DNA of 44,929 bases from Candidatus Gastranaerophilales bacterium (GTDB lineage: Bacteria; Cyanobacteriota; Vampirovibrionia; Gastranaerophilales; Gastranaerophilaceae): positions 1 through 44,929 of the forward strand of contig CALUTG010000009.1 in the NCBI GenBank assembly GCA_944323615.1, in the 5' to 3' direction. The notes beneath the pieces were generated by a model. That model did no database searches. It worked only from the letters and a program-made list of their open reading frames with translations, and was not told the DNA's origin. How positions within the stretch are numbered: the first letter of the stretch is position 1; each line of letters opens with the position of its first letter. Made by a program: the position numbers and the translations under genes. This document shows positions 20,636-33,720 of the stretch, piece by piece.

Positions 20636-20656
20636 ATAAGAATCTGGTTTTCTTGT

Positions 20657-20763
20657 GATTCGTGAATTGTGAGCCGAAGTCTTGAAATTTCAAAAAATAA
20701 GCAGTGTTTATTAAAATATTTTATAACCCCGATTCACGACTCACTGCTTACGATTCACGAAAA
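20657..20763. repeat. Nested inverted-repeat element after ychF
   Basis: TTCGTGAA (20659-20666) pairs with TTCACGAA (20754-20761). Inside it, AAGCAGTG (20699-20706) pairs with CACTGCTT (20742-20749). The flanking sequence near 20780-20800 (cactcaatcacttagtcac) recurs in other gaps of the window, at about 34835 and 35210 and inverted at about 30220 and 30375. This is a small dispersed palindromic element with no coding capacity. Confidence 0.6.
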
Positions 20764-20810
20764 GAAGGAGTTCCTTAATCACTCAATCACTTAGTCACTC
20801 CCCCACCGAC

Positions 20811-21113
20811 TCACTGTCCTTCACGCCTTACAGCATTAACTACCCAGCCGTCTGAACGGAAATGGGCATAGTGGTTTTTATTCAGGTATTTTTCAGACCC
20901 TTTCCCTCCATGTCTCAGCCATTTTTCTAAAATCTCAAGTGCTTTTCTGATAAACTCATATCCGTACTTTTCAACCAGAGACCCGTATTGGTCAGGAGTT
21001 AAGATAACAAGATTTATATCAGGTATCTCAACTCTTATACTACAGTTACTCTTAGGACGTCCGCCTTTTTGACCGTTATATTTACATATAAGCTTCCTGT
21101 CTCTTATAATCAT
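20811..21113 (-). CDS. Small phage-type protein (100 aa)
   Basis: The sequence GRPKSN near the N-terminus, then LTPDQYGSLVEKYG, a helical FIRKALEILEKWL, and the C-terminal KNHYAHFRSDGWVVNAV follow a pattern I associate with small proteins of phage and mobile elements, often beside replication or helix-turn-helix genes. No biochemical role is known to me. Three ATGs compete. The one at 21113 is best placed, 8 bases after AAGGAG; those at 21119 and 21137 are too close to or ahead of it. It overlaps the upstream gene (21082-21318) by 32 bases in another frame, suggesting translational coupling. Confidence 0.7.
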   Translation of the reverse strand: MIIRDRKLICKYNGQKGGRPKSNCSIRVEIPDINLVILTPDQYGSLVEKYGYEFIRKALEILEKWLRHGGKGSEKYLNKNHYAHFRSDGWVVNAVRREGQ

Positions 21114-21318
21114 CCTCATCTCTCCTTGGTGCGCCATATCTTCTTACTAGTTCTATTACAGTCTCCTTCATTTTGCAGTGAAAATTGGTATTCATAAAAT
21201 AAATCTTATATAAATTACAGCGGCTGCAGGAACATCCGATAAAATAACAATCCATTGCTGCTGGTGTCCAATTTTTAGAAATTGTTTCACTACATGATAC
21301 ATTATATTTATACCTCAT
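21082..21318 (-). CDS. Small Cys-rich protein opposite the repressor (78 aa)
   Basis: Not recognised. Six Cys lie at positions 9, 24, 29, 31, 34 and 48. The cluster C-x4-C-x-C-x2-C (24-34) could bind zinc. The C-terminal 30 residues (KETVIELVRRYGAPRRDEDDYKRQ) are charged and helical. GGAG lies about 10 bases before the ATG. It is the first gene leftward from a minus-strand promoter at 21437-21465 that overlaps a palindromic operator, so the repressor at 21493 probably controls it. An antirepressor, excisionase-like or Cro-like role is possible from position only. Confidence 0.6.
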   Translation of the reverse strand: MRYKYNVSCSETISKNWTPAAMDCYFIGCSCSRCNLYKIYFMNTNFHCKMKETVIELVRRYGAPRRDEDDYKRQEAYM

Positions 21319-21378
21319 TTAATTTAACTCCAACCCCTTAATAATACAAAATAAACAAACTTTTAGAGAATTAATCAA

Positions 21379-21465
21379 TTGACAGATGTACCAATATATG
21401 TTTAAATATCATATATAACATTACATCTTGTACATCATTGTAAGATATTATTTGACATATGTCAA
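21379..21465. promoter_or_regulatory. Switch region: two facing promoters with palindromic operators
   Basis: Plus strand: TTGACA (21379-21384), 17 bases, then TTAAAT (21402-21407) with a TG extension, reading toward the repressor. Minus strand: TTGACA (21460-21465), 17 bases, then TACAAT (21437-21442), reading toward the two small genes. A perfect 14-base palindrome TTGACATATGTCAA (21452-21465) covers the minus -35. Related sites are TTGACAGATGTACCAA (21379-21394), an imperfect ATCTT/AAGAT repeat near 21426-21446, and a half site TTGACAT at 21474. The promoters face each other, as in the coliphage 186 switch, so transcription from one crosses the other. Confidence 0.5.
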
Positions 21466-21492
21466 GCATATATTTGACATAACGAGAAATTT

Positions 21493-22113
21493 ATGAAATT
21501 AGAAGAACTCTTGATAATAATTCCTAAAAAAACAGGAAAATATATAAATCAGTCCACTCTTGCCGAAAGCCTTGGAATAACAAGACAGACTGTAAGTAAC
21601 CGCATTAAAAATGAAAGTCAGGTTACTATAAGCGAGTTAAAAAAAATTGAAAATTTTTTTAATATAACTCTTTTTAATGACACATCCGAATCAGAAGAAA
21701 ATGTTATTTATATTGATTACTACACAGATGTTTTTGCAAGCTGCGGAAGCGGAAATATTGTTTTTTCAGAAGAAAAAATAAAACTCCCTATCCCTGAAAT
21801 ATTAATTGACGGTTTCTCTAGACTAAAAAATTATTCAATGATTAATGCTACAGGAAACAGCATGGCGCCTACAATTGATAACGGTGACAAATTAATCGTT
21901 GAACACTGGCGCGGCGAACAAATTCAGGATAATAAAATCTATGTTTTTTGTTTTAATAATGAAATTTTTGTAAAACGTTTATCCAAAAATCTTGATGAAA
22001 TTATTATTAAATCTGATAATCCGGAATATAGAATCCGTACAATAAACGGAAATACTATCAATGACCTTATTTTAATTGGAAAAATTGCAGGTGTTATTAA
22101 GAATCTGGGATAA
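21493..22113 (+). CDS. Self-cleaving LexA/CI-type repressor (S24 peptidase)
   Basis: An N-terminal helix-turn-helix (about 20-55, with LAESLGITRQTVSNRI) is joined to a C-terminal S24 peptidase domain. Ser123 (GNSMAPT) and Lys161 (FVKRL) form the expected catalytic dyad, and Cys84-Gly85 (ASCGSG) is a likely self-cleavage site, as in UmuD- and CI-like proteins. At 206 aa it fits phage-type repressors. The HTH is of the XRE type and not the winged helix of true LexA, so it is probably a phage or mobile-element repressor released on DNA damage. It lies opposite two small genes and 45 bases ahead of trkA. The ribosome binding site is weak (GAGAAA). Confidence 0.88.
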   Translation: MKLEELLIIIPKKTGKYINQSTLAESLGITRQTVSNRIKNESQVTISELKKIENFFNITLFNDTSESEENVIYIDYYTDVFASCGSGNIVFSEEKIKLPIPEILIDGFSRLKNYSMINATGNSMAPTIDNGDKLIVEHWRGEQIQDNKIYVFCFNNEIFVKRLSKNLDEIIIKSDNPEYRIRTINGNTINDLILIGKIAGVIKNLG

Positions 22114-31089: not shown

Positions 31090-31278
31090 CTAACCCAAGA
31101 GTTCAGTCAATAAAGTAGCATTTTCTTCAGCTTTAAGGTTATTAGAAATTTTATTACGTTTAATATATACTCTCAAAGCTTCTCGAATCAATTCGCTTCT
31201 GGTTCTTTGTTCAGAATTAGCTATATTATCTACTTTAGTTAGAAAGTCGTTAGACATAGAAATCAATACACGTGCCAT
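31090..31278 (-). CDS. Ribbon-helix-helix (CopG/Arc type) DNA-binding protein
   Basis: The 62-aa protein begins with the beta strand ARVLISMS, followed by NDFLTKVDNIA and the second helix TRSELIREALRVYIK, the standard RHH layout. The ATG at 31278 is used because GGAGGGA lies about 5 bases upstream. An upstream start at 31365 would add a tail with no such site and would run through the promoter. No toxin gene is next to it, so it is either a lone regulator or an orphan antitoxin. An ATAAA/TTTAT inverted repeat in its own promoter suggests self-control. Confidence 0.85.
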   Translation of the reverse strand: MARVLISMSNDFLTKVDNIANSEQRTRSELIREALRVYIKRNKISNNLKAEENATLLTELLG

Positions 31279-31300
31279 ATTCCCTCCGTAATCACACCCT

Positions 31301-31328
31301 ATTATATCATATAAATAGTTTATTACAA
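31301..31328 (-). promoter_or_regulatory. Promoter and possible operator of the RHH gene
   Basis: On the minus strand TTGTAA (31323-31328) and TATAAT (31301-31306) are 16 bases apart. The inverted repeat ATAAATAGTTTAT (31311-31323) lies between them and is a candidate site for the RHH protein itself. Confidence 0.5.
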
Positions 31329-31503
31329 GAGTATATCTGTAATATATTAATAAATTGTTACGCAATTAAATCATGCCCAAACCCTGAAATCACATGTATT
31401 TCCATGATGTTAAGTTTTGTAAACATGTGTTTTTAAAAAGTCAATTCATGAAAACATAAATACTTTATATATATAACGAGAACTATTAAGAGGATAAAAG
31501 AGT

Positions 31504-33720
31504 ATGACGTTTCCATTTATGACAACAGGATTTACAGGATGGCAGCCATCATTCATTAACTTCCAGATGTGCAGCACTAATCCTATGAATTCAATGAACA
31601 TACTTTGGAACCAGCTTAATATGAAAAGTATAGCAGACAGCATGGTTTATAATTATCCTGTTTTTAGTATGAGTAATTTTACACCATTCTTTGGTGACAC
31701 AAATTATAATACATTACTTGATCCAAGCTTAGCTGTAATGCAAACTTGGTGGAAAAGTAATAACCCTAACAACGGCTGGAGCGGATTTAATAATACCGCA
31801 TTTGGCAATATGGACTTCAGCAATTTGTGGGGTAATTACAACAACGGCGGCGGAAACAACAACACTCTTGGTGATGACAGAACCAAAACTGAAGAACAAA
31901 TAAGCTATCAAAGAAAATATAACAAACTGCTTTCATTAATGAAACAGTTAAAAGAATCTGATAAACTTTCTCAAGCAGAAAAAGATGCTATTAATGCAGC
32001 AATTATTGCAGATAACGAAAACTCCAGAGGAGAGTGGAAGGACAAATTTAACGCATTAAAGAAAGTTTATGATGAAAAAATTGATGATACACACATCAAA
32101 AAACATATCATTAACAGCATGACAATGGGTACCGAAGAATCACCTGATGCTGATGAAGTATTCAAAGTCAGATTGACAGATGCAGGTTTTGAATACAGGG
32201 CAGATAGCATTGATGCCAGCCTTTATGCACTTAAGACGGCTATTGATGAACTCAGCGACAGCAATCCGTCTATTACTAACGGATTAATCGGAGCGCTTGA
32301 TTATGAAAGCACTGATACAAACATTCTTGATTTAATCAGCAGCTGGAACAGTGAAAAAGGAAGCCTCAATGTAGACAACAAACGTATTATGGCTTACATT
32401 GCAGATAAATACAACGACAGCAAGATTAAAGATGAATCCAGAGAAGAAATAAAAACAAGTCTTGTTAAACCGCTTTATCTCTCATTAATAAATAAAGCAA
32501 AAGACTTAGCTAACCAGCTTGAAGGAGAAGAAATCGACAATCTTACTAATGCAATCACAGCATTAACTACTGAATATGATAAACTTGATAAGAATATGTC
32601 AACATCATTTGTTCAAGCATTTGATAACTTGTATATAGCAACAAGATGGGCTGCAATAAAAGTTATAGCTAAAGATGCTGATGAATACTACGGCGATATT
32701 GACAGCATGTTCAACAGAGAACTCTTTGACGAAGACACTAAGAAAGACTTAAAATCAGAAGGTTTTTCTGATACGGAAATCTCTGCTCAAATAGTTAACT
32801 ATCAGGCTATAGAACACGATAATGCCGATCAAGGTAACAATAACGGCAGCGGTACTTTAGGAAATACTCCGGAAGAACAAGCAGCAGCATTGCAGCAGCA
32901 GGGTTATATTGCAGTTTTGCAAGGTAAGACCTATGCAGATGGAGAAGCTGTTTATGAAGAAATAGAAGGCACCAACTCAGACGGAACAAAAAAACTATTT
33001 ATAATTAAAGACGGAAAATGGCAGGAACTCAAAAATCCAACATTGGATGCTAACGGCAAATATACAGCAGACAGCTTACAAGAAATTACTGCAGAAAAGA
33101 TTAAAGAATACAAAGAAGATAAATTAGCTGCAGAAGAAGCTGAAAAACTGGCAGAGGAAGAAGCTAAAACAATTCAGAAGTCTCAAGGGGCTGCATTTCG
33201 GGCAGGCAAAGAAGCGAAAGAATTTCTTTGCCGTTGGACAAAAAAGGATCAGCGAAACGACGTAGATAAACGTCTAAATATAGTAAATAAAGATAATGTT
33301 CTTGAGTTCTTAAAAGGAGTCTATCAAAATACTGCCGTTGATGGAGGCAGCGGAAGATTTTCTGTGGAAGGATTTATAGAAAAACTCGTTGATGATGCAA
33401 AAACAGATACAGATACTATTGTAAAATTCCTGGAGGCAGTACTGGCAAAAGCTAAAGAGTTAGGTCTAGAACCTTCTGATGACTCTTCTAATGAATATAC
33501 CGTTCTTAAAATTATACTTGAGTATATAAAAGACCATCCTGATTTGAATAGCAGAATCGGAAGAACTAATGTTATAAATTGGAACGGTGAGCTTGGTGAA
33601 AAAGCCATAAACGGTAAACTCTTTGGTAATAAAATAACCGAAGCTATAGACCCTATTCTTGAAAGACTCTATAAGAAAATGCTTGCCGCTGAAAACCCTC
33701 AGGTACAAGCGCAAGAATAG
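31504..33720 (+). CDS. 738-aa protein of unknown function with NFTPFF N-terminal motif
   Basis: Not recognised. Residues 1-130 are rich in Asn, Met, Phe, Trp and Gly with no classical signal peptide. Residues 52-63 read PVFSMSNFTPFF, matching PVCMNFTPYF in the muramidase-like protein at 7411. Residues 135-440 are charged and helical (K-L-L-S-L-M-K-Q-L-K-E-S type). A Gly/Asn linker (about 440-455), a small beta region (about 465-535) and a Lys/Glu/Ala-rich helix (540-565) follow, then a C-terminal helical domain with CRWTKK and LEFLKGVYQN. GAGGAT lies about 9 bases before the ATG. It is probably exported or structural, by inference only. Confidence 0.8.
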   Translation: MTFPFMTTGFTGWQPSFINFQMCSTNPMNSMNILWNQLNMKSIADSMVYNYPVFSMSNFTPFFGDTNYNTLLDPSLAVMQTWWKSNNPNNGWSGFNNTAFGNMDFSNLWGNYNNGGGNNNTLGDDRTKTEEQISYQRKYNKLLSLMKQLKESDKLSQAEKDAINAAIIADNENSRGEWKDKFNALKKVYDEKIDDTHIKKHIINSMTMGTEESPDADEVFKVRLTDAGFEYRADSIDASLYALKTAIDELSDSNPSITNGLIGALDYESTDTNILDLISSWNSEKGSLNVDNKRIMAYIADKYNDSKIKDESREEIKTSLVKPLYLSLINKAKDLANQLEGEEIDNLTNAITALTTEYDKLDKNMSTSFVQAFDNLYIATRWAAIKVIAKDADEYYGDIDSMFNRELFDEDTKKDLKSEGFSDTEISAQIVNYQAIEHDNADQGNNNGSGTLGNTPEEQAAALQQQGYIAVLQGKTYADGEAVYEEIEGTNSDGTKKLFIIKDGKWQELKNPTLDANGKYTADSLQEITAEKIKEYKEDKLAAEEAEKLAEEEAKTIQKSQGAAFRAGKEAKEFLCRWTKKDQRNDVDKRLNIVNKDNVLEFLKGVYQNTAVDGGSGRFSVEGFIEKLVDDAKTDTDTIVKFLEAVLAKAKELGLEPSDDSSNEYTVLKIILEYIKDHPDLNSRIGRTNVINWNGELGEKAINGKLFGNKITEAIDPILERLYKKMLAAENPQVQAQE

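Follow-up and report, generated by a model that had tools for sequence, protein, structure and literature searches.

A locus on a chromosome of the order Gastranaerophilales, a gut lineage related to cyanobacteria but non-photosynthetic, is likely to be a domesticated phage lysogeny switch, in which a RecA-triggered response to DNA damage would release a small protein, p108, predicted to restrain the initiation of replication. The window, i.e. the whole stretch of 44,929 nucleotides which was analysed, corresponds to contig C9 in the 1.93-Mb assembly of a Candidatus Gastranaerophilales bacterium. Between positions 20811 and 22113, a repressor gene (CI) lies opposite the small genes p78 and p108, with facing promoters in between. 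An earlier note, made from the letters of this DNA, had already described a repressor opposite a Cys-rich gene and a 100-aa gene; this arrangement was confirmed, and both small genes are real. The genes are the following:

20811..21137, minus strand: p108, a predicted stand-alone initiator C-terminal domain (phrog_13246; alignment to ~200-aa initiators)
21082..21318, minus strand: p78, a small Cys-rich protein (53-member A2 alignment; omega; relatives in 17 viral contigs)
21493..22113, plus strand: CI, 206 aa, a predicted self-cleaving repressor of the S24 family with an HTH N-terminus (Pfam, PHROGs)

CI displays the architecture of an autocleaving S24 repressor, with an HTH domain (HTH_3, E=8e-9) followed by an S24 domain (Peptidase_S24, E=8.5e-19; both Pfam), a Ser-Lys dyad and a cleavage site of the Ala/Cys-Gly kind, and in PHROGs it matches a transcriptional repressor (8.6e-34). 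The residues to which the earlier note had pointed, namely Ser123, Lys161 and the Cys84-Gly85 site, are invariant in 53-54 of the 54 loci compared, and the recognition region TRQT.SNRIKN is nearly invariant across loci. RecA-stimulated self-cleavage is plausible, given this conservation and the established biology of S24 repressors. CI is the only S24 repressor found in the genome of the window. In another genome of the genus, G011, the locus L110 (G011:C24:16000-27038) contains genes which read as terminase- and portal-like, together with an S24 repressor featuring a CI-like peptidase part (46% overall) and a different HTH.

The region between the divergent genes holds the predicted promoters and candidate operators:

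21379..21407, plus strand: rightward CI promoter, TTGACA (21379-21384), 17 nt, TTAAAT (21402-21407), with TGn (extended -10)
21437..21465, minus strand: leftward p78-p108 promoter, TTGACA (21465-21460), 17 nt, TACAAT (21442-21437), 11/12 match
21379-21392: O1, operator-like site TTGACAGATGTACC, within the rightward promoter
21421..21434: O2, candidate middle operator TTACATCTTGTACA, proposed from the alignment of 30 relatives, near both predicted start points
21452..21465: O3, perfect palindrome TTGACATATGTCAA, over the leftward -35

The face-to-face TTGACA promoters with 17-base spacing stood up to comparison: the rightward pattern, TTGACA-17-T[TA][TA]AAT, occurs in 51 of the 54 loci and the leftward one, TTGACA-17-TACAAT, in 50, against 0 in shuffled sequences for both. 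The perfect 14-bp palindrome reported over the leftward -35 does exist, and has no other exact copy in the genome, but as a conserved operator it was ruled out, since TTGACA-NN-TGTCAA is perfect in only 2 of the 54 loci (0 in shuffles). Its outer arms are not conserved, while the core ACA-NN-TGTC is (49/54 loci, 0.4 in shuffles). Alignment of 30 intergenic regions revealed an invariant rightward TTGACA, a TATG-N-TTAAAT block, a TTACAT/TGACAT half-site and a block ATTGTAAGAT-N-ATATGATACAAATGTCAAG; in O2, the TTACAT half is conserved and the remainder variable. From these sequences, we infer ACA-WW-TGT as the operator core. The -10 elements of the facing promoters are about 30 bp apart, and the two polymerases would therefore be mutually exclusive, resulting in a sharp switch.

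When the window was read ORF by ORF from end to end, the locus proved to be flanked on either side by genes which are housekeeping or unassigned, including gatA, the atp operon, ychF, trkA/trkH, def, fmt and dus (mostly named by this reading). Phage structural genes were not recognised in the window, as had been stated before, nor were an integrase or a MOR/Cro gene at the locus; the structural, integrase and lysis genes of an active prophage are thus missing from its surroundings on ORF reading. No Rfam family matched around the locus. The spacer between ychF and p108 (20640-20815) contains GATTCACGA/CACTCACT-like repeats, which recur at G000:C28:15900 (~100 bp, 82% identity) and in about ten shorter stretches; this is a dispersed intergenic repeat. 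Further along the window, the minus strand at 31090-31365 encodes a protein of the CopG family (RHH_1), beside which no toxin partner is obvious. Large predicted proteins with no function assigned are encoded at 31504-33720 and, elsewhere in the same genome, at L003:2117-3166.

The suggestion that relatives carry the same trio was checked with a positive outcome, and the locus shows no decay. CI and p108 are present throughout the genus, in 34 of 34 genomes. In 30 of these, p78 lies beside them, and it is absent in G014, G017, G028 and G033; in G024 there is only a short p78 match, and the gene is shortened in some loci. A p108 scan of genome contigs returned 58 loci, the relatives being Gastranaerophilales/Melainabacteria MAGs. 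Among them, the 53 loci L202-L254, a set chosen by p108 and overlapping the 34 genomes of the genus, all combine CI with p108, and 47 also have p78. A search of 23 genomes outside the genus gave no p108 at E<=0.001. In eight close pairs, dN/dS was 0.01-0.06 for CI; for p78 it was 0.10-0.19 in five pairs and near 0 in two, and for p108 0.01-0.14 in six, the exceptions being L238/L239 (1.4, where the synonymous distance is just 0.01) and the window with L202, where synonymous sites are saturated. Most of these pairs indicate purifying selection on each of the three genes. Moreover, CI seems to be vertically inherited, as its distances track those of trkA (r=0.79; 0/2000 permutations; 28 loci). 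A mobile island is disfavoured, as ychF and/or trkA are neighbours in most loci; the trio is found elsewhere in some genomes.

The smaller genes can be traced to phages. No Pfam, PHROG or NCBIfam family was matched by p78, and its AlphaFold model, a small helical protein (pLDDT 75), had no usable match in a PDB fold search. It contains six Cys residues, and the alignment of 53 members (A2) defines the core WTxxAxxCYxxGCxCxxC...CxMKxxVxELVRxxGxP. Sub-alignments were used for the collection scan, the full alignment being too diverse. By these comparisons, p78 belongs, as subfamily A, to an undescribed family of Cys-rich proteins which spans the order and also occurs in phages. Most genomes of the order have two or three members (A, B, C), with A at the window locus, B, in the window genome, between genes read as murF-like and hpf-like, and C at other sites; the paralogues in the window genome, at L002:1465-1680 (G000:C4) and L003:1498-1749 (G000:C42), are present across the order. 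In viral contigs, relatives were found at 17 loci, two of which were already known from earlier searches.

For p108, the best start is probably 21113, with AAGGAG eight bases upstream in the sequence as read, giving a product of 100 aa. The 100-aa gene of the earlier note fits this start, and most of it falls outside the interval 21082-22113 in which that note had placed the switch. The only profile match was phrog_13246 'replisome organizer' (E=1.4e-4); a fold search gave no usable match, and a sequence search of the PDB only chance matches. However, p108 aligns with the C-termini of ~200-aa initiators in the IMG/VR contigs L179, L180 and L181, each with a p78-like gene directly before the initiator, and in the chromosomal loci L255-L259; the N-terminal PF14297 domain of Lin1244_N-type initiators is absent from p108, while both the C-terminal homology and the adjoining p78-like gene are found. 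The ORFs of L180 and L181 are identical, so these look like one phage and the three contigs represent two distinct phages. In L179, the initiator matches Lin1244_N (E=1e-10) and the next gene encodes a primase/helicase (phrog_239, E=9e-92); the gene at this position in L180 and L181 has ~547 aa and a similar sequence, and L179 and L180 have an ORF read as an S24-like repressor divergent from the early genes. In two more viral contigs, L281 and L285, the gene immediately after a p78-like one reads as a Lin1244_N-type initiator (among viral contigs, the comparison with p108 covered L179-L181), which brings this gene order to five viral contigs from four distinct phages. Since the p78-like gene of phages precedes an initiator whose C-terminus corresponds to p108, p78-p108 is, on gene order and alignment, the stump of a phage replication operon, i.e. 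a truncated descendant of its p78-initiator pair.

A second chromosomal form retains the longer protein. The CI of L255-L259 has 53-55% identity, and opposite it lie a gene of 70 aa and one for a full-length initiator, of ~200 aa, with the p108-type C-terminus. The flanks, named by reading, are the same in five genomes, with a zinc-ribbon protein and a DUF167-like gene on one side and a folC-like gene on the other, beyond which a histidine-kinase-like gene is found where the contig reaches; no phage genes were found around these loci. The recognition helix of this CI is nearly the same, and several ACA-NN-TGT sites lie between the divergent genes.

These data are consistent with the following course. 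The ancestral temperate phage would have had an S24 repressor facing an early operon, in which a p78-like gene was accompanied by those for a replication initiator and a primase/helicase. The host lineage would have retained the repressor and p78, but of the initiator just the C-terminal domain. In undamaged cells, CI would sit on ACA-NN-TGT-type operators over the leftward promoter and keep p78-p108 off, probably binding over its own promoter as well. Upon DNA damage, RecA filaments would stimulate CI to cut itself at Cys84-Gly85, the leftward promoter would fire, and p78 and p108 would be made. Lacking the N-terminal domain, p108 would most likely contact the helicase or its loader and restrain replication initiation until CI reaccumulates. 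We infer the operator binding, the RecA trigger and an action on replication, in which p108 and p78 probably take part, and with less confidence that p108 acts on helicase, loader or initiator. The contact with helicase or loader is a guess, because it is based on the role of the C-termini of phage initiators, and no solved fold could be recognised for p108 or p78. Tentatively, with the odds rather against it, the freed domain, controlled by the domesticated repressor, may be the effector of a replication checkpoint for DNA damage in a LexA-less lineage, occupying the host helicase or loader with the assistance of p78.

A somewhat unlikely alternative is that the trio works against phages, CI conferring superinfection immunity to phages with like operators, and p108 and p78, made once damage or a phage antirepressor inactivates CI, acting as dominant-negative proteins which jam the initiator of the incoming phage. 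Homology to two adjacent early proteins of phages is a classic basis for interference, and the amino-acid sequences of p108 and p78 have diverged more rapidly than those of CI and the flank (p108 72-80% versus 96-97% for trkA); S24 prophages are, in addition, present in the genus (G011). Nevertheless, phages gave no near-identical match to CI or p108, the best being at 43% and about 42% identity, respectively, and p108 was not found in the INPHARED phages. Most omega values are well below 1, with no sign of diversifying selection, and in most genomes the position is stable and not island-like.

The lack of LexA raises another explanation, namely that CI is simply its substitute, a core SOS regulator reaching repair genes via degenerate operators that were missed, with p78-p108 as a minor part. 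No match over the TIGR00498 cut-off was obtained in 22 genomes of the genus, nor in the five genomes of L255-L259, as judged with one profile on MAGs which are 80-99% complete; the profile matched 9 of 14 known control genomes, Synechococcus among them, and some other families of the order do carry LexA. In the window genome, the sole match was CI itself, with 27 bits against a cut-off of 111 and over its C-terminal part only, so that the whole protein is not LexA by this profile; G001 and G011 each have a second match below the cut-off. RecA and a Y-family polymerase are present. Regulon scans, carried out genome-wide as pattern searches, did not support broad control. The palindrome with up to two mismatches occurred 9 times, versus 15 for the reversed control, and TTNACAWWTGTNWA sites numbered 10/11 versus 6/6, mostly inside genes or before non-repair genes; a 17-mer pattern of the leftward promoter recovered the CI locus and scattered matches. 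A recurring match to ATTGACAATTGTATCAT was ruled out as a regulon target, being the start of a speH-like coding sequence. The operators at recA and repair genes which are expected of a LexA were not found; in particular, no CI operator was seen upstream of recA or dinB, and the locus therefore does not command a broad SOS regulon. As these pattern searches revealed no further CI targets, with genome sites near background, the best reading is a self-contained regulon, and a mere stand-in for LexA is quite improbable.

A metabolic or redox switch, with p78 as a Cys-rich sensor of the metal or Fe-S type and a CI that responds to a signal other than RecA, would account for the near-invariant Cys residues of the p78 family. 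It would also suit the family f6 (L106:6089-6577, L107:5349-5810 and L108:5207-5671, at other chromosomal sites of three genomes), in which the S24 repressor (39-42% identity with CI) lies opposite two genes, one of ~100 aa and one for a ~155-aa protein whose p78-like core is fused behind a MerR-type HTH. The autocleavage site of CI is, however, intact, and the phage members of the family adjoin replication genes, making this reading improbable too. Finally, a non-adaptive prophage relic on its way to loss, to which the truncated initiator and a p78 missing in some genomes and shortened in others might point, is hardly credible in view of CI and p108 in all 34 genomes, the purifying selection in most pairs, promoters base-conserved in nearly all loci and two chromosomal settings. 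The earlier choice between a remnant and a domesticated switch thus resolves mainly to the latter, favoured by genus-wide conservation, purifying selection, vertical inheritance, invariant catalytic residues, a nearly invariant recognition helix and conserved promoters; the locus is also a remnant in the sense that p108 is the C-terminal part of an initiator whose N-terminal domain is gone.

Compared with Lin1244/Lin1753-type initiators (PF14297), p108 matches the C-terminal domain (phrog_13246) and the phage p78-initiator order is the same, but the N-terminal domain is missing and no helicase gene follows. Facing promoters are also known from the genetic switches of the phages P2 and 186. CI/MOR of TP901-1 combines a repressor and an early gene with two promoters in less than 1 kb and several operators (PMC7250872); the window locus differs from switches of this type in being chromosomal and in its output, p78 and an initiator fragment. 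The prophage protein YfdR is reported to bind DnaA (PMC4776307), so prophage proteins can restrain host initiation. Both YfdR and p108 are prophage-derived small genes, the restraint by p108 being proposed and the likeness one of role, not of homology. The UmuDAb-DdrR system of Acinetobacter (PMC11332147) resembles CI in that a LexA-less genus has an S24-type repressor divergent from a small genus-specific protein; there, UmuDAb is a UmuD derivative which controls error-prone polymerases, with DdrR as corepressor.

The closest parallel, by mode and not by homology, is FddR of Francisella (PNAS Nexus 2026, PMC13148647), a phage repressor turned chromosomal damage switch where LexA is missing. 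Both cases share a genus-wide chromosomal S24 phage repressor, a divergent gene and no LexA. The FddR operator is GTG-N11-CAC, as opposed to ACA-NN-TGT at the window locus, its cleavage site is Ala-Gly instead of Cys-Gly, and its damage induction has been demonstrated (PMC13148647), whereas that of CI is predicted. Furthermore, phylum and phage source differ, and for the window locus the origin of the divergent genes has been followed back to a phage replication operon. If correct, our reading would add a further independent phage-repressor damage switch after FddR, again with LexA missing and in a different phylum, and the first case known to us with divergent genes traceable to a defined phage operon. 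It suggests a checkpoint for which a phage replication initiator supplied a part, and turns the rebuilding of SOS after the loss of LexA into a testable question.
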